DNA from: a virus
IMG/VR virus record: IMGVR_UViG_3300017956_003450
Coordinates: 1-42,028 of that record
Length of the DNA: 42,028 nucleotides
Reading direction: 5' to 3' (one strand)
Made by a program: the position numbers and the translations under genes. Every line of letters begins with the position of its first letter. The first letter of the stretch is position 1. Positions 5,145 to 41,884 of this stretch are shown in pieces. The notes beneath the pieces were generated by a model that was given only the letters and a program-made list of their open reading frames with translations, had not been told where the DNA came from and did not search any database.

Positions 5145-6143
5145 ATGGACATACAAACAACAATTCTTTCGCATATCAGTGTTAAATCAAAGAAAACACC
5201 TTCTGGCTGGATAGCAATTAATTGTCCAATGTGTACGTCTCAAGGTCAAACTAGACCAGATACACGTCAACGAGGGGGTTTTAAAATAGGTGAAGTAATT
5301 AGTTATCATTGTTTTAACTGTAATTACAAAGCATCATTTACACATGGCAGGTTGTTAAACAAAAGAATGCGTGAACTTTTATTAGCAGTAGGGGTTCCGG
5401 ACCAAACAGTCAAAGAACTACAATTTCAGGCCATTAAAGAACAAGACAATCAAAAGCAAACGCCAGGTTTAAGTAAATGGACTTTAGATTTTAAAGAAAT
5501 TGCATTGCCAAAAGATGCAAAGCCAATTGAAGAAGTTATTAATCATTCTAATCCACCTGATGATGCAGTTTTTGTTTACAAATATATGATTGATAGAGGT
5601 TTAGATTTTTATAAAAGTTTTTTCTGGTCCCCGGATCCTTATATGAAAATTAACCAACGTTTGCTATTACCTTTTTATTATAACAATAAAATTGTAGGAT
5701 ATACTGGAAGACTAATTAAAGAAATTAACAATGTACCAAAATACTATTCTTCGGTACAACCAAACTACTTGTTTAATATTGATAAGTTATTTGAAGATAG
5801 AGTATATACTGTAATTGTTGAAGGTGTTTTTGATGCAATAGCAATAAATGGTATTTCTTCTTTAGGAAATAAACTAACTCAAGCACAAATAGATTTATTG
5901 AATAATTTGCAATCAAAGATTATTGTTTGTCCAGATAAAGATAAGTCTGGAGGACATTTAGTTGATATTGCAACAGATAATAATTGGGCAGTTAGCTACC
6001 CAAATTGGGAAGATAATAATATTAAAGACACAGCCGAAGCAGTACAAAAATATGGAAGATTATATACATTACAATCTATAATAAAATCTGCTACAACAAA
6101 TAATGCAAAAATACAAGTTATGAAAAAGATAGGAATCAATTAA
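5145..6143 (+). CDS. DNA primase, T4 gp61 type
   Basis: A 332-residue protein with the two expected primase parts. The N-terminus holds a zinc ribbon: Cys-x2-Cys in NCPMC (about residues 26-29) and CFNC (about 56-59). The C-terminal half carries a TOPRIM fold: VIVEGVFDA with the conserved Glu and IIVCPDKDKSG with the metal-binding Asp-x-Asp. Length and arrangement fit gp61 of T4-like phages, which lays RNA primers for lagging-strand synthesis with the gp41 helicase, encoded at 7461. It has its own promoter ending near the ATG. ClpP follows 4 bases later. Confidence 0.9.
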   Translation: MDIQTTILSHISVKSKKTPSGWIAINCPMCTSQGQTRPDTRQRGGFKIGEVISYHCFNCNYKASFTHGRLLNKRMRELLLAVGVPDQTVKELQFQAIKEQDNQKQTPGLSKWTLDFKEIALPKDAKPIEEVINHSNPPDDAVFVYKYMIDRGLDFYKSFFWSPDPYMKINQRLLLPFYYNNKIVGYTGRLIKEINNVPKYYSSVQPNYLFNIDKLFEDRVYTVIVEGVFDAIAINGISSLGNKLTQAQIDLLNNLQSKIIVCPDKDKSGGHLVDIATDNNWAVSYPNWEDNNIKDTAEAVQKYGRLYTLQSIIKSATTNNAKIQVMKKIGIN

Positions 6144-6147
6144 CAAA

Positions 6148-6750
6148 ATGACAGAAGAAAATAACAAAAGAAAAAACACAGATAAACCTATGCAACAACA
6201 ACCATTACAACCAGGTATGTTAATGTATGAAGCTGGAATTATTTATTTTAGTGATGGTTTTGATAGTTCAACAACCAAACCAGTTATTAACACAATAATT
6301 GAAAAAAACCTTTTACCAAATTCACAAAGACCAAATGAAATTACATTAGTAATTAATTCCCCGGGTGGTCAAGTTCATTCAGCATTTGCACTTATTGATA
6401 CAATGAAAGGTAGTGCTATACCTGTAAAAACAGTAGGATTAGGAATGATTGCAAGTTGTGGGCTATTGACTTTTATGAGTGGTACAAAAGGCCGTAGAGT
6501 TATTACACCAAACACATCAATATTATCACATCAATATAGTTGGGGTTCCGGCGGTAAAGAACATGAGCTATTTGCTAGAGTAAGAGAATTTGAATTAAGT
6601 ACTGAAAGAATGATTAATCATTATAAAAAATGTACTGGATTAACTGAAAAGCAAGTAAGAGATATTTTGTTACCACCAGAGGATAGATGGCTATCAGCCA
6701 AAGAAGCAGTTAAGTATGGTATTGCAGACAAAATTGTATCTACATATTAG
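6148..6750 (+). CDS. clpP: ATP-dependent Clp protease proteolytic subunit
   Basis: A 200-residue ClpP with a complete catalytic triad visible: Ser103 in GMIASCG, His128 in ILSHQ and Asp179 in EDRWLSA. The oxyanion-forming NSPGG is at 70-74. ClpP forms a 14-subunit chamber that degrades substrates unfolded by ClpX or ClpA; a phage-borne clpX lies at 32383 and a clpS at 41567. The first 20 residues are Asn/Lys/Gln-rich and lack the usual pro-peptide look. It follows the primase by 4 bases and precedes thyX by 9, so it is expressed with replication and nucleotide genes. The phage enzyme could replace or mix with host ClpP; that is inference. Confidence 0.93.
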   Translation: MTEENNKRKNTDKPMQQQPLQPGMLMYEAGIIYFSDGFDSSTTKPVINTIIEKNLLPNSQRPNEITLVINSPGGQVHSAFALIDTMKGSAIPVKTVGLGMIASCGLLTFMSGTKGRRVITPNTSILSHQYSWGSGGKEHELFARVREFELSTERMINHYKKCTGLTEKQVRDILLPPEDRWLSAKEAVKYGIADKIVSTY

Positions 6751-21443: not shown

Positions 21444-21755
21444 ATGTATAAGCCATTGCCAGACGGATTAACTATTAAAGAATCAAATGTGCAAGGTTTA
21501 GGTTTGTTTGCAACAAAAGATTTTGATGCCGATGTGGTATTGGGTATAGTACACGTATTAAATAAAAATTTTCCACATGGCAGTATTAGAACAGCCTTAG
21601 GTGCATTTTATAATCATTCAGATGATCCTAACTGTAAAAATGTTTCAGGATTTTGGCATCAACTGCCAGTAAAATATCTTATCACAATTAAACCAATCAA
21701 AGCTGGTCAAGAACTCACAGCCAAATATACTCTTTATAACGATTTTCATGATTGA
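21444..21755 (+). CDS. SET-domain methyltransferase-like protein
   Basis: A 103-residue protein containing the SET signatures: GLGLFATKDFDAD, the FYNHSDDPNC motif that forms the pseudoknot with the SAM pocket, and IKAGQELTAKYTLY with the catalytic-side Tyr. SET enzymes transfer methyl groups from SAM to protein lysines. Bare SET domains of this size occur in some bacteria and phages. Substrate unknown. The SAM synthase encoded at 26070 could feed it. The gene ends just before the tmRNA promoter; the -35 box starts 4 bases upstream of its last base. Confidence 0.8.
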   Translation: MYKPLPDGLTIKESNVQGLGLFATKDFDADVVLGIVHVLNKNFPHGSIRTALGAFYNHSDDPNCKNVSGFWHQLPVKYLITIKPIKAGQELTAKYTLYNDFHD

Positions 21756-21782
21756 CAGAATCTGTTTTCTGTGCTATAAATA
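21752..21782 (+). promoter_or_regulatory. tmRNA promoter, host-type and late-type boxes merged
   Basis: A perfect TTGACA (21752-21757), exactly 17 bases, then TATAAA (21775-21780). The -10 is also the first part of a perfect T4 late box, TATAAATA (21775-21782). Both readings give a start near 21787-21788. This is the best promoter in the window and could be used by host and phage sigma factors alike. Confidence 0.75.
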
Positions 21783-21847
21783 TTTATACAATGTTGAAAT
21801 AACTTAAAAGTTGAGTAGGACCCGGGGGCGGTACCCGGCGGCTCCAC

Positions 21848-21947
21848 CATAAACATATTAGGAGTTAAATGGAATTTTTGTGGATAGGAATAGCAGTAGC
21901 ATTTGCTACCATATTGTGGGCATTAACACTTTAACAATATGTTTATG
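21848..21947 (+). repeat. Inverted repeat enclosing the tmRNA intervening segment
   Basis: CATAAACATATT (21848-21859) and AATATGTTTATG (21936-21947) are perfect 12-base complements. They extend the acceptor stem of the tmRNA precursor, so the spacer between the two halves forms one long stem with a 76-base loop. This would help the two halves fold before nucleases remove the spacer. The loop holds a Shine-Dalgarno and a complete short ORF. Confidence 0.85.
21869..21934 (+). CDS. 21-residue membrane micropeptide inside the tmRNA spacer
   Basis: AGGAG sits 4 bases before ATG 21869, and the frame runs 21 codons to TAA. The product (begins MEFLWIGIAVA, ends LWALTL) is one hydrophobic helix with a Trp near each end, exactly long enough to cross a membrane. 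It lies wholly inside the loop of the tmRNA intervening segment, flanked by the 12-base inverted repeat. It may be translated from the precursor or the excised spacer. Peptides of this shape can be toxins, membrane-complex subunits or holin-like. Short frames occur by chance, but a consensus ribosome site plus a perfect membrane helix makes this a good candidate. Confidence 0.5.
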   Translation: MEFLWIGIAVAFATILWALTL

Positions 21948-22126
21948 CTGGGGCCGAACTTAGGATCGACTATCATATTAGTAGAGTTATGGAGTTGTCC
22001 GGCGGGAGCTCGGTTAACGCAACAAAAAATATAAATGCAGATGAAAATCTAGCACTTGCGGCCTAAATTAGGCTAACGGGGTTGGCAACTTACCTGGCAA
22101 CAGAAAAGTTGCACATAAGGATTAAA

Positions 22127-22843
22127 ATGCAAATATTATCTCAGAGTTTTCCTAGTTGTTATGAATATAATATAGAACAATCTGGAAAATTAACATTAAG
22201 AACTAGAACCACGTACTTCAATGAAGGACAGTTATGGCCAATAGCAAATACTAATATTGGTTATCTTTCAATAACCAAATGTCTATCATCAAGTTTTACA
22301 GAGTTTTTGAGATTGCAAAATTTAATAACTGATCAATTCTTATTTTCTAAAGATAATCAGTTAGACAACGTTGATAAGATATTAGTATTTCTTCGAGATC
22401 CTTGCCAGCGTTATATGTCAGGTATTGCAGAATATATTCATATGCAGTTTGCTTCTGACATACAGACAATGTCACGACAAACACTGATACACATAGTAGA
22501 AGCATTGATAGGAATCAGTGATATAGACGAACACAGCATAGAACAAATTCATTTTTTTAGAGATTTTAATTTGCAAAAGTTTTCAGTTTTTCTAATGAAC
22601 GATAAATTTTCCGAACAACAGGTGTTTGATTGGATGCGTGACAACGGGACAATCTTTAGAAACGACATACCATTGACAATACCAAAAATCAATAGAACAG
22701 TAGACAATGAGATTAAACAAAAAATTTATGATGCAGTACAATCTGTAGGCATGAGAAGAGGTTTTTCTATAATGAACAAGTGTATAGGTGATACAGAGTT
22801 AATTAATCATTTTAAATCAAATGGTCAGGTAATAAATGTTTAA
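22127..22843 (+). CDS. Sulfotransferase-like protein
   Basis: About 238 residues from the ATG at 22127, with AAGGATTAAA just upstream. The frame is open to a TTG at 22082, but that overlaps the tmRNA 3' hairpins and is rejected. ILVFLRDPCQRYMSGIAEYI resembles the 3'-phosphate-binding motif of sulfotransferases (FVRDPxxRxxSxY). A clear 5'-phosphosulfate loop is not obvious, so activity is uncertain. Such genes occur in marine phages and are thought to modify surface glycans. It lies directly downstream of the tmRNA and may be transcribed from its promoter. Confidence 0.65.
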   Translation: MQILSQSFPSCYEYNIEQSGKLTLRTRTTYFNEGQLWPIANTNIGYLSITKCLSSSFTEFLRLQNLITDQFLFSKDNQLDNVDKILVFLRDPCQRYMSGIAEYIHMQFASDIQTMSRQTLIHIVEALIGISDIDEHSIEQIHFFRDFNLQKFSVFLMNDKFSEQQVFDWMRDNGTIFRNDIPLTIPKINRTVDNEIKQKIYDAVQSVGMRRGFSIMNKCIGDTELINHFKSNGQVINV

Positions 22844-30077: not shown

Positions 30078-30530
30078 ATGGCAAAATACTATAGCACAAA
30101 AACATATGGACACAACATTGGATTGAGTGCAGTGTTTAGACAACCAAATGCAGATCATTCACATTGTCATCTGCTACATGGATACAGTTTACAGTTCAAA
30201 TTCACATTTGGATGTGATCAATTAGACAACAAAAATTGGGCAGTAGACTTTGGTGGGTTGAAACCACTGAAAGCATGGCTTGAAGACAATTTTGATCACA
30301 AACTTTGTTTAGATAAAAATGATCCTTATATTGAAAAGTTTAAAGAACTAGAAAAATTAGATCTAGCAGAAATTAGAATTTTTGATGGCGTAGGAGCAGA
30401 AAAATTTGCCGAACACGCTTTTAACTATGCAGATGGATTAATCAGAGAAGCAACTAATAACAGATGTTATGTTGTAGAAGTTGAATGTGCAGAGCACGGT
30501 GCCAACAGTGCAATTTATTCTGTAAAATAA
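30078..30530 (+). CDS. QueD / 6-pyruvoyltetrahydropterin synthase-like protein
   Basis: A 150-residue T-fold protein. Cys30-x3-His34-Gly matches the catalytic Cys and first half of the HGH motif. Asp73-His74 (FDHKLCL) and ECAEHGANSAIYS with the substrate-binding Glu are also present. QueD makes 6-carboxytetrahydropterin on the way to preQ0, which phages use for tRNA or DNA 7-deazaguanine modification. Two of the three usual zinc ligands are changed: the AAH position is AVF and HGH is HGY (Tyr36). A His-rich run, HSHCH (27-31), might replace them. Reaction therefore uncertain. No other pathway gene is visible here. Confidence 0.75.
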   Translation: MAKYYSTKTYGHNIGLSAVFRQPNADHSHCHLLHGYSLQFKFTFGCDQLDNKNWAVDFGGLKPLKAWLEDNFDHKLCLDKNDPYIEKFKELEKLDLAEIRIFDGVGAEKFAEHAFNYADGLIREATNNRCYVVEVECAEHGANSAIYSVK

Positions 30531-30546: not shown

Positions 30547-32112
30547 ATGTTTATAGCAATACTGACATTATTATCAGCATTATCTATTAGTGCCGTTGCA
30601 ATTTATTATTCAATTGCTGGTTTGGCGGCTATTTTTGCTGGTGCAGTTATTCCTATTATGATAATGGGAACTGTGTTAGAGGTGGGTAAATTAATAACAG
30701 CCTCTTGGCTATATCAGTATTGGAAACTTGCTCCGCGGTTCTTAAAATATTATCTTTCAGTTGCAGTTCTTGTGTTGATGTTTATAACAAGTATGGGTAT
30801 TTTTGGTTACTTGTCTAAAGCACATATTGAGCAAACTAGTTTATCTCAAGAGCAAGTAGCATTAATTGATACGTTAGATGACAAAATAGATAGATCAACT
30901 CTTAAAATTGATAGATGGACAGGCGATATTGATCGCTTAATGAAAGGCGAAGATGTACGAGTTGACAATTTAATATCAGCCGAACAACAAGTTCTTAATG
31001 ATTTATATGCCAAAATCAAACAAGAAAAAGATGATATTAGGGTTGATTTTGACAAGCAAATTGAATTACAGAACAATAGATTAACTCAAGCAAAAGAACG
31101 TAAAGATGCCGACATTGCCGCGGCACAAGAACGTTACAAAGGTGCGTTTAGTAAAAAAGGTTTAGATGATGCAATAGCACTAGCCACAAGCAATGAATTA
31201 GCAGTAGCATCAGCGGCTCAAACAGAAATTAAACTTATTAACAGTAAATTAGACGAAGCATTATCAAGTATTGATACAAAATATGCTGAACAAATTAGAA
31301 CAATAGAAAGTAGAATACAGAGCCTTAGAGATCAAGCAAATGCAAAAACTGAAGATATTGATGGTAGAATATTAGAACTTGAAGGATTTATTGATCAAGA
31401 ACAACTGATTGTTGATCAGGCTAGAGAAGAAAAATTCATATATGAAAAAGAATATCGTAAACTTGAAGCAGAAGTTGGACCAATCAAATACATTGCAGAA
31501 TTTATTTACGGTCAAGAAGCAGATAGGGATTTACTAGAAGAAGCAGTGCGTTGGGTTATTATTGTTATCATATTTGTGTTTGATCCACTTGCTGTTTTAT
31601 TATTAATAGCGGCCAATTTTACATTTAAACACAGATATGGAAGATCATTTGAAGAAATGATAGGCGTTCCTGGACCAGATGGTTCTCCGGGTGGTGTAAC
31701 ACCTGATTCGTATTGGAAAGAAAGATACGAAGATATGCAAAGTCAACTTAATGAATTTAATAAACTCAAAGAACAGCAAGATACACAAAAAACAAAAGAA
31801 AATCCAGGAATAGATCTTCCTTCTGCATCGTATCAACTAGACATGGATTATTCTATAACAGAGGAACAAAAAGAAGATTTTAAAAAAAGAGAAGAAGCTG
31901 AAAAGAAAAAACTAGAAGAAATAGCTCAAAAGGCAAGGGAAGAGATTATTGAAGAAGTTTATCCAATGCCAGATGTATCAACAGATGTAGAATCTAGAAA
32001 AGAGCCTGAAGTTACAATAGATGATATGCATGAAACTGATCCACCCAAAACTATTGTGGAAGAAGTTGAAGTAAAAGATCTGTCCGATGAAGACCTAAAA
32101 AAAAAGACTTAA
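30547..32112 (+). CDS. Membrane-anchored coiled-coil protein (probable -1 frameshift product)
   Basis: A 521-residue protein. Three membrane helices lie near residues 3-25, 27-50 and 66-90, then a long coiled coil (about 98-310, with many Glu, Lys, Gln and Leu), a fourth membrane helix (335-357) and a charged, Pro-poor tail. Membrane proteins of this layout occur in marine T4-like phages, role unknown. The frame ends at TAA 32110-32112 just after A AAA AAG; reading -1 there extends the protein by 94 residues (see next entry). Transcription is from a late-type box with a leaderless start. Confidence 0.75.
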   Translation: MFIAILTLLSALSISAVAIYYSIAGLAAIFAGAVIPIMIMGTVLEVGKLITASWLYQYWKLAPRFLKYYLSVAVLVLMFITSMGIFGYLSKAHIEQTSLSQEQVALIDTLDDKIDRSTLKIDRWTGDIDRLMKGEDVRVDNLISAEQQVLNDLYAKIKQEKDDIRVDFDKQIELQNNRLTQAKERKDADIAAAQERYKGAFSKKGLDDAIALATSNELAVASAAQTEIKLINSKLDEALSSIDTKYAEQIRTIESRIQSLRDQANAKTEDIDGRILELEGFIDQEQLIVDQAREEKFIYEKEYRKLEAEVGPIKYIAEFIYGQEADRDLLEEAVRWVIIVIIFVFDPLAVLLLIAANFTFKHRYGRSFEEMIGVPGPDGSPGGVTPDSYWKERYEDMQSQLNEFNKLKEQQDTQKTKENPGIDLPSASYQLDMDYSITEEQKEDFKKREEAEKKKLEEIAQKAREEIIEEVYPMPDVSTDVESRKEPEVTIDDMHETDPPKTIVEEVEVKDLSDEDLKKKT

Positions 32113-32390
32113 AACTTGAAGACAATACTCAAATTATATCAATCAACAAAGATGGTAATTTATCACGTTCTGGAAACAGTCTGGAAGCAAGAAAAGAGAA
32201 CATCAAAAGGATTGACATCAATGATGAAATTAGTATAAACTTAACTGAAGTAAAAAAGATTATTGATATGGATGGTATTCATAAATTAACACAACAAACA
32301 CTACAAACTCCATCAGTCTCTCAAACACAAAATTTTTCAAGAGATAAAAAATGGATAAAAGATTGGTTAGAAAATAATAAAAATGAATAA
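32100..32390 (+). other. Slippery site A AAA AAG and 94-codon -1 frame extension
   Basis: The last codons of the upstream frame read CTA AAA AAA AAG ACT TAA. The heptamer A AAA AAG (32100-32106) is in the right phase and is the same slippery sequence as in E. coli dnaX. After a -1 shift the frame runs from GAC at 32106 without a stop to TAA 32388-32390, overlapping the ATG of clpX. The added 94 residues look like protein: Asp/Lys/Ile-rich, ending [14 protein letters not shown]. No ATG with a ribosome site opens this region on its own. A homopolymer sequencing error (nine A) would give the same picture, as would transcriptional slippage. Confidence 0.65.
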
Positions 32391-33627
32391 AGATGAAAAT
32401 ATGAAATGTTCTTTTTGTGGTAAGTTACGAAAAGATGCTGAAAAGTTAGTTGCTGGTCCAGAAGGCGCTTATATATGTGATGAATGTATTGAACTTTGTC
32501 ATAGTATAATTGACGACACTAGCAAAGGTAAAGAAAAAGTAATAGAAGAAACATTTGAAATTCCTGATCCAAAAGATTTGCATGATCATTTAAATGATCA
32601 TGTTATTGGTCAAGAACAAGCAAAAAAAGTTTTAAGTGTTGCAGTATATAATCATTACAAAAGATTATTTTCAAATAAAGAAGAAGATCATGATGATGGT
32701 ATTGAAATTGAAAAATCAAATGTATTAATGCTTGGACCATCGGGTGTTGGTAAAACACTTATGGCAAGAAAAATTGCTGACTATGTTAATGTGCCTTTTG
32801 CTATTGGTGATGCTACAACTCTAACTGAAAGTGGATATGTAGGAGATGATGTTGAAAACATTATTGTAAGACTGCTGGCCAATGCAGATTATGATGTTGA
32901 AAAAGCACAAAGAGGAATTATTTACATTGATGAAATTGATAAAAAATCACGTAAATCAGAATCTACATCAATCACAAGAGATGTATCTGGTGAAGGTGTA
33001 CAACAAGCACTTCTAAAAATTATTGAAGGTACAGTAGTAAGAGTACCACCACAAGGCGGTAGAAAACACCCACAGCAAGAAATGATTGAAGTTGACACAT
33101 CAAACATATTGTTTATATGTGGAGGTGCGTTTGTTGGCTTAGAAAAAATTATTAATAAAAGAGTGAATACAAATGCAATGGGTTTTGGCAGACCTGTCGA
33201 GGTAGATCAAACTTTAAACCAAGCGGTACAACCAGAAGATGTTATAAAGTTTGGATTGATTCCAGAACTAGTAGGTAGATTGCCAGTTTTAGTATCAGTG
33301 TTAGAATTAACTAAAGCCGAAATGAAAGATATTTTAATTAAACCTGAAAATTCATTACTCAAACAAACACAAAAGTTATTTAAAATGGAGTCTATTGATC
33401 TTGAGATAACAAATGATGCTATTGAGCAGATTGTTGAAAATGCTTATGAGAAAAAGTTAGGTGCTAGAGCATTAAAATCAGTTTTAGAAGATTTATTGCT
33501 AGACATACAATATGAATTACCAAGTTATCGAAAAGCAGGAGTAACAAGACTAGTTGTGAACAAAGATACATTTAAAAATAAAAACCCTCTTTTGATTTAC
33601 CAAGATACAGGAACCCAATTAGAATAA
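32383..33627 (+). CDS. clpX: ATP-dependent Clp protease unfoldase subunit
   Basis: A 414-residue ClpX. The N-terminal zinc domain has Cys9, Cys12, Cys32 and Cys35 and normally binds substrates and adaptors. The AAA+ domain has Walker A GPSGVGKT (118-125), Walker B IIYIDEID and the sensor-2 segment LGARALKS. It unfolds tagged proteins and feeds them to ClpP, which this phage also encodes (6148). It should recognise the tmRNA tag ending in LAA. The start overlaps the end of the -1 frame extension. An ATG at 32401 would remove six residues but keep the zinc site. infC begins at the base after the stop. Confidence 0.95.
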
Positions 33628-34164
33628 ATGAAATCTCGTTTTGGTCCAAAAGATATTAGTAGAAACAATTCTCTAATAAACGAAAAAATTCGAGCATCTA
33701 AAGTAAGAGTAGTTGACGACAATTTTAATGTTATAATGAATCTTAATGAAGCAATAGCAAGAGCAAAAAATGAAGGATTGGATTTAATTTGTATCACACC
33801 AAATGCAAATCCACCTGTTTGCAAAATAATGGATTTTGGTAAGTATCTTTATCAACAAAAAAAGAAAAAAAAAGAATCTGCTAAAAACCAAACAGTCACT
33901 GAATTAAAAGAAATACAGTTTAGGCCAACCATTGATATTGGTGATATCAAAGTAAAAACCAAAAGAATAAATGAATTTTTAGCACAAGGACACAAAGTTA
34001 AATTGATTATGCAGGTTCGTGGTAGAGAGCAAGGAATGAAAGACTTTTGTTATCAAAAGTATGAAAATTTTGTTGGATTTATTGATAAATTTGAATATGA
34101 CACAAATCCAAAGTGGCAAGGTAATAAAGTTCTTGCAATTTTAAAAAAATCTAGTATAATATAG
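33628..34164 (+). CDS. infC: Translation initiation factor IF-3
   Basis: A 178-residue full-length IF3. The N-terminal domain (NNSLINEKIRASKVRVVDDN ... GLDLICITPNANPPVCKIMD) and the Lys-rich linker helix (YLYQQKKKKKE) lead to the C-terminal domain (ELKEIQFRPTIDIGDIKVKT ... KVKLIMQVRGREQ). IF3 binds the 30S subunit, blocks premature 50S joining and checks the start codon. The start here is ATG, not the AUU that bacterial infC uses for self-control, so that feedback seems lost. It directly follows clpX and carries the promoter of rpsU in its 3' end. Confidence 0.95.
   Translation: MKSRFGPKDISRNNSLINEKIRASKVRVVDDNFNVIMNLNEAIARAKNEGLDLICITPNANPPVCKIMDFGKYLYQQKKKKKESAKNQTVTELKEIQFRPTIDIGDIKVKTKRINEFLAQGHKVKLIMQVRGREQGMKDFCYQKYENFVGFIDKFEYDTNPKWQGNKVLAILKKSSII
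34133..34160 (+). promoter_or_regulatory. Host-type promoter for the S21 gene
   Basis: TTGCAA (34133-34138), a 16-base spacer and TATAAT (34155-34160), inside the end of infC. The start near 34167 gives a short leader with GAGGT before the ATG at 34184. Confidence 0.6.
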
Positions 34165-34183
34165 TTTAACAAATGAGGTAAAA

Positions 34184-34525
34184 ATGAAACCAAACAACAG
34201 AAACTTTAAATCAAATAAAAACTTTAAAGGGGACTTTAAAGGGGGCTATTCTAATAACAAGCCAAAATTTGATAGACCAAAACCAGTAGGATTACAAGTC
34301 TTTGTACGTGAAGGAGAAGATCCTATGAAAGCATATCGTAAATTAAAAAAACGAATTATGCAAGATGGTTTATTACAAGAAGTCAAAGATAGACGTTATT
34401 ACCAAAAGCCGAGCGAAAAGAAGAAACTAGCAAAGCAACAAGCAAAACGTAGAAATGAAAAAAGACAACGTGAGTTGGCAATGGAATACGGTATCCGATA
34501 TAAAAATTATACACCTGGATACTAG
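34184..34525 (+). CDS. rpsU: Ribosomal protein bS21, extended
   Basis: A 113-residue bS21. The core VFVREGEDPMKAYRKLKKRI ... EVKDRRYYQKPSEKK starts near residue 39. It is longer than the usual 70 residues because of an N-terminal Asn/Lys/Phe/Gly-rich extension (with FKS/FKG repeats) and a basic C-terminal helix. bS21 sits near the anti-Shine-Dalgarno end of 16S rRNA and influences start selection. S21 genes are known in several large and marine phages. Next to a phage IF3 it points to control of translation initiation. It has its own promoter and GAGGT ribosome site. Confidence 0.92.
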   Translation: MKPNNRNFKSNKNFKGDFKGGYSNNKPKFDRPKPVGLQVFVREGEDPMKAYRKLKKRIMQDGLLQEVKDRRYYQKPSEKKKLAKQQAKRRNEKRQRELAMEYGIRYKNYTPGY

Positions 34526-41566: not shown

Positions 41567-41884
41567 ATGACAGCAAATGCATCACCTAATGTATCACCTA
41601 ATGTTGATACTGTTGGAGATATTAAATTACATGAACCAAATCAGTATCATGTAATTTTTTTAAATGATGATTATACACCAATGGAATTTGTAATAAGTAT
41701 TCTAATTGATATATTTCATCATGATAATGATACAGCTAGTGAATTAACTCAGTTAATTCATGACAAAGGAAAAGCAGTAGTTGGTACTTATGTACACGAA
41801 ATTGCTGAACAGAAAGCAATTGAATCAACTGCAATGGCTCGTTCCGCTGGTCATCCTTTAAACGTTACAGTTGAGTCTGAATAA
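41567..41884 (+). CDS. clpS: ClpS adaptor (N-degron recognition)
   Basis: A 105-residue ClpS. YHVIFLNDDYTPMEFVISIL contains the Asn-Asp-Asp and Thr-Pro-Met-Glu motif that binds an N-terminal bulky residue. QLIHDKGKAVVGTY has the His that holds the amino group, and EIAEQKA the following helix. ClpS normally hands N-degron substrates to ClpA. No clpA is seen in this window, so it may use the host ClpAP or compete with it. It follows the membrane module by 2 bases. Confidence 0.93.
   Translation: MTANASPNVSPNVDTVGDIKLHEPNQYHVIFLNDDYTPMEFVISILIDIFHHDNDTASELTQLIHDKGKAVVGTYVHEIAEQKAIESTAMARSAGHPLNVTVESE

Follow-up and report, generated by a model that had tools for sequence, protein, structure and literature searches.

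Tail assembly chaperones are the best-known recoded genes of tailed phages. In gpG/gpGT, a C-terminal extension in the -1 frame is added to the product of a phage gene that sits among tail genes, beside the tape measure gene. The dnaX gene of Escherichia coli contains the phased heptamer A AAA AAG together with an upstream SD-like stimulator and a downstream hairpin, and gives two products with a common N-terminal part (PMC3711429). The heptamers A AAA AAG and C CCA AAG are among the strongest shift heptamers in E. coli (PMC4066793). The dnaX gene of Thermus thermophilus carries nine A near its 3' part and also gives two products sharing the N-terminal part (PMC1088944, PMC5009743). Bacterial RNA polymerase slips efficiently at nine A, as in Thermus dnaX, and IS elements of Deinococcus carry 8 or 9 A at the corresponding position (PMC1088944; PMC5009743). 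In Shigella spa13, transcriptional slippage adds a C-terminal extension of 112 aa, the end of which overlaps the start of the next gene (PMC5009743). In IS-element transposases (orfA/orfB), ribosomal and transcriptional slippage occur within one gene kind.

A gene encoding a membrane coiled-coil protein was analysed in the window, a 42-kb IMG/VR virus contig; the gene with its tract and tail, its flanking genes and the promoter-like motif described here lie on the + strand. The 0-frame ORF (30547..32112) encodes 521 aa, and its codons around the slip site are CTA AAA AAA AAG ACT TAA. These include a tract of nine A (32097..32105), followed directly by G32106, and the heptamer A AAA AAG (32100..32106), which satisfies the X XXY YYZ phase. 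The stop of the 0-frame, TAA, is located at 32110..32112, four bases past the heptamer, as a first-pass annotation of this DNA had claimed; the codons likewise agree with its statement that the heptamer is the same as that of E. coli dnaX and is correctly phased. An open -1 frame begins just 5' of the tract, reads GAC TTA AAA CTT ... GAA TAA after the heptamer and ends at 32390. The tail that is accessible by a shift only (32106..32390), referred to here as T1, consists of 94 codons and a stop (32388-32390), and is open in all relatives. It extends into the start of clpX (32383..33627), the ATG of which, at 32383, overlaps the tail stop (ATGAATAA), also as annotated. The first in-frame ATG, GTG or TTG of the tail lies 156 nt 3' of the 0-frame stop. 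The predicted fused product comprises 520 + 94 = 614 aa.

The window gene resembles Thermus dnaX in its nine A near the 3' part and in two products with a shared N-terminal part, but the template frame encodes the long form in Thermus and the short form in the window, and the proteins are unrelated. The phased heptamer and the common N-terminal part are shared with E. coli dnaX, whereas neither an SD-like stimulator nor a downstream hairpin was found at the window site, and the shift leads to the short product in E. coli but would lead to the long product in the window. An extension ending over the start of the next gene, as in Shigella spa13, is proposed for the window, in an unrelated protein and system. 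Like gpG/gpGT, the window gene is a phage gene with a C-terminal extension in the -1 frame; its assignment as a tail assembly chaperone was rejected, as its neighbours encode ClpX, IF3 and bS21 and a PHROGs search of the protein gave no match. Two kinds of slippage within one kind of gene, as in orfA/orfB, appear in the family described below, although the window protein is not a transposase.

The same arrangement was identified in close relatives carrying tail T1, some of the IMG/VR contigs being near-duplicates. L002 (99%), L003 (79%) and L004/L005 (72%) have nine A, an instant 0-frame stop and a conserved -1 tail, and further scans added L037, L044, L294, L297, L091, L222 and L224 with identical design. 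Among the matches listed, a tract of eight or nine A and the tail are kept in 12 of 12 T1 members, and the tail is in the -1 frame in 11 of the 12; the comparison of homologues suggested by the first-pass annotation thus came out in favour of a retained -1 arrangement. Nine A are present in 8 of these 11 (L002, L003, L004/5, L044, L091, L222 and L224, as in the window), and eight A in L037, L294 and L297. The heptamer A AAA AAG is in phase in every -1 member, the eight-A members included. In L007, eight A are out of phase and the tail is in the +1 frame, which reflects either an assembly error or RNA slippage that tolerates a change of length. Neither ten A nor a tail fused in frame was found in T1 members among the matches listed. 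Reads with ten or eight A had been named as a refutation of the shift, but only ten (or seven) A would fuse the frames, not eight. The codons 5' of the tract vary among the T1 relatives (CTA, GTA, GTT, GCT, or AAG AAA AAA AAA). At the T1 loci the clpX start overlaps the tail stop or lies close beside it, and 5' of the gene a homologue of the window's neighbour at 30078..30530, which we take to be a putative queD-like gene, is present in 11 of 11 -1 loci.

Substitution patterns indicate that the T1 tail is under purifying selection. The dN/dS of the tail is 0.17-0.51 in most T1 pairs and 0.82 in one pair. A Met in the motif D/N-M-D/E-G is invariant in the T1 core, and the stretch from the tract to this Met (30-54 codons) has an open -1 frame in all 7 T1 sequences tested, with 0 stops as against 3-10 stops in the other frames. 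The pooled pN/pS of the tail is 0.16/0.34 before the conserved Met and 0.23/0.49 after it. An independent translation start for the tail was rejected, since the segment between tract and Met is open and evolves as coding sequence. In L091, L222 and L224 the Met motif is absent and the -1 tail is still open. The claim of two products, of about 521 and 614 residues, through programmed access to the -1 frame is strongly supported by the homologues; the dnaX-type ribosomal shift that had been proposed for it is not, because the phased heptamer is accompanied by neither a stimulatory hairpin nor a conserved SD-like element.

The window gene belongs to a family of 4-TM coiled-coil proteins of large marine phages with at least 101-103 unique members that have a visible stop. 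A -1 shift leads to a C-terminal tail in at least about 44 of these. Four tail types were found among the matches listed, namely T1 (that of the window), T2 (..Y.QN.EQ..S.W/F..), T3 (GDLF.RVD.LP.K.FRYTG..W.EI..) and T4 (EVYVEA..D.S.P..V.ELE..). In other members of the family, tails T2, T3 and T4 are found in frame 0 as well (e.g., T3 in L027, 8.6e-30; T2 in L160, 1e-16; T4 in L038, 4e-16), and the frame state switches at least 13 times on a tree built from the N-terminal part that the listed members share. The combination of a -1 extension of 20 codons or more, an A AAA AAN heptamer in phase and the lack of a start codon nearby was found in 35 of 95 family ORFs and in none of the 691 remaining ORFs at these loci; the -1 arrangement in the family is beyond chance, and no formal p-value is attached to this comparison because the family members are related and not independent. 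In one sister pair, the tail of L158, which has nine A, is in the -1 frame and that of L291, with ten A, is in frame; the tract lengths differ at an alignable place. Runs of nine or ten A are located 3' of the fourth TM in 13 of 59 in-frame members (e.g., L006, L033, L056, L117, L184, L189 and L279), where slippage would possibly yield short forms. In L288, the frame of which is fused, C CCA AAG is found near codon 406 of the ORF and is followed by a stable fold (z -4.3); a -1 shift at this site would truncate the protein. A distant relative in the huge phage LR756501 (L307, near 5422) seems to end after an A-rich tract, with a -1 extension of 32 codons.

The sites of the T3 subgroup appear to be organised as in classical ribosomal -1 frameshifting. 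The heptamers of T3 members are C CCA AAG, A AAA AAC, A AAA AAT and A AAA AAG, with runs of 3-8; in the main clade the sites have short runs (6-8) and lie at the 0-frame stop, with C CCA AAG in L057/L170. Stems of 8-14 bp begin 2-6 nt downstream of the site. The z-scores of the folds are -3.6 in L163, -4.5 in L164, -5.6 in L166 and about -1 to -2 in five others, and L168 gave no fold signal in this test. In L163, L164 and L166, a heptamer, a short spacer and a strong hairpin are found at the stretch of about 60 bases that follows the 0-frame stop near 5794, 5770 and 5758, respectively, which makes these three clear candidates for -1 ribosomal frameshifting. The family thus appears to employ two mechanisms, a ribosomal shift with a hairpin in T3 and slippage on nine A elsewhere.

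At the window site, folding without pseudoknots gave no downstream structure (z +0.7 to +0.9). By the same folding, z is mostly near 0 in the T1 relatives, and no stimulatory structure was found in T1, T2 and T4, the only exceptions being weak stems in L091 and L240. No SD-like stimulator conserved in the 40 nt 5' of each site was seen by eye. Exactly nine A are present in 21 of 21 T2 -1 members, in T4 and in L228 among the matches listed, and the nine-A tracts of T1, T2 and T4 occur in three codon phases. In the other coding sequence of the family loci (280 kb), runs of six A occur 298 times, of seven 77 times, of eight 12 times and of nine once; this control is unmatched for the Lys-rich tail, which accounts for part of the enrichment of A runs, and the family members are related. 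The Lys-Lys pairs at the T2 tract are AAA AAA in 24 of 24 cases (excluding 3 AAA AAG pairs that close AAA AAA AAG tracts) as against 7 of 45 elsewhere, and AAG in these pairs would still preserve the heptamer. In T1, 87% of Lys codons are AAA, so that three Lys codons already account for most of the tract; the clearest sign of selection for nine A therefore comes from T2, not from T1.

Slippage of RNA polymerase on the nine A, which the first-pass annotation had listed as an alternative, is the preferred explanation at the window site and has a somewhat better than even chance of being right, because about nine A are kept in T1, T2 and T4 whatever the codon phase and a stimulatory structure is absent. 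The preference over ribosomal slippage is modest, since the T1 -1 members always keep the heptamer and encode Lys mostly by AAA anyway. Programmed -1 ribosomal frameshifting at A AAA AAG without strong stimulators is accordingly a serious reading, with a probability of roughly a third. It predicts the phased heptamer seen in the eight-A T1 members, which counts against polymerase slippage; the heptamer is a shift-prone one, and the T3 cousins, with hairpins and short-run heptamers beside the 0-frame stop, clearly look ribosomal. However, the window and its T1 relatives have no hairpin or SD-like element except the weak hairpin of L091, heptamers without a stimulator yield only about 0.3% in an E. 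coli assay (PMC4066793), the tract exceeds the length that the heptamer requires, and L007, with its out-of-phase tract, could not produce its tail in this way.

Phase variation, in which the tract would mutate in length at replication and genomes with nine and ten A would represent the short and the long state, finds some precedent in the sister pair L158/L291 and in the eight A of L007. It is improbable, as the tract length is nearly constant (nine in all the T2 members, nine or eight and never ten in T1) and the short-run hairpin sites of T3 are not phase-variable. Another reading is that the sequence past the stop is conserved only as a promoter for clpX plus a short ORF of its own, with the conserved ATG near 32268 as start codon. 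A sigma70-like motif, TTGACA-18 nt-TAAACT, is indeed located inside the tail (32212..32241) and may drive clpX; its TTGACA-like element is conserved among the T1 relatives and may explain part of the nucleotide conservation, and the invariant Met would fit a small ORF. Promoter-like matches in the tail region are no commoner than in shuffles, and this reading is very improbable given the open, coding-like segment before the Met, the members that keep the tail without the Met motif, and the other tail classes that are fused in frame in sisters. Homopolymers are prone to error and L007 is possibly one such case, but an error in the window sequence, also raised at first pass, is not credible because independent contigs, which come from different metagenomes and range in identity from 99% to about 50%, carry the same arrangement with varying flanking bases; its probability is negligible.

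Under polymerase slippage as preferred here, ordinary decoding would stop just past the A tract and give the protein of 521 aa. In some presumed fraction of expression events, slippage on the nine A would produce mRNAs with ten (or seven) A, and translation would then continue in the -1 frame to the clpX start to give the long form. The ribosome may also slip into the -1 frame on A AAA AAG and so contribute. The stop of the long form overlaps the clpX start codon, and the shift may therefore also bring ribosomes to clpX.

The gene product would be an inner-membrane coiled-coil protein with two C-terminal forms. An AlphaFold2 model of the 521-aa protein (mean pLDDT 71, pTM 0.33) predicts three N-terminal TM helices, a coiled coil at about 100-321, a fourth TM at about 335-357 and a charged, disordered C-terminal tail; at this confidence the model is too weak to support a fold search. 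As positive charges flank the loops, the coiled coil is expected in the periplasm and the tail in the cytoplasm. As a best guess, the protein would serve as an anchor in the inner membrane, with exchangeable binding modules on its cytoplasmic tail and the long tail on only a part of the subunits. ClpX is a weak candidate for a partner or a coupled product of the membrane protein, since it is encoded beside the T1 members and also adjoins the relative in Salicola SCTP-2. Searches with the window protein gave only sub-threshold Tetraspanin matches in Pfam and weak coiled-coil matches in a PDB profile search. The GTDB genomes gave one distant match without the recoding arrangement. The isolated phages Mosig EXVC030M, Salicola SCTP-2, XacN1, RAS14, immuto and Mel-JY01 were set aside, as the relatives they encode are shorter and lack a -1 tail.

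Searches of the open-access literature yielded no account of recoding in this family of genes. The family would be a second, widespread recoding case in tailed phages, in large marine ones. As its tails come fused, by nine A, or by a heptamer with a hairpin, the family can serve as a natural series for how recoding arises, changes mechanism and disappears. It is tentatively proposed, at somewhat less than even probability, that the ratio of short to long C-terminal tails is itself the conserved trait, which is made interchangeably by nine-A slippage (T1, T2 and T4), by a hairpin-aided ribosomal shift (T3) and possibly by truncating slippage in the fused members, mechanism and direction having switched repeatedly. 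The long proteins are probably missing from databases, because gene callers without a frameshift model would overlook the tail.

The window contig also encodes ClpP, a tmRNA (tag ADENLALAA), ClpX, IF3, ribosomal protein bS21 and ClpS (6148-6750, 21753-22157, 32383-34525 and 41567-41884), which is a viral set for translation rescue and proteolysis. The product of the clpX gene of this set matches the Pfam families zf-C4_ClpX (3e-17) and AAA_2 (7e-32). A second run of nine A is located within the IF3 gene (33865-33873); such runs are otherwise nearly absent from the coding sequence of the related loci.
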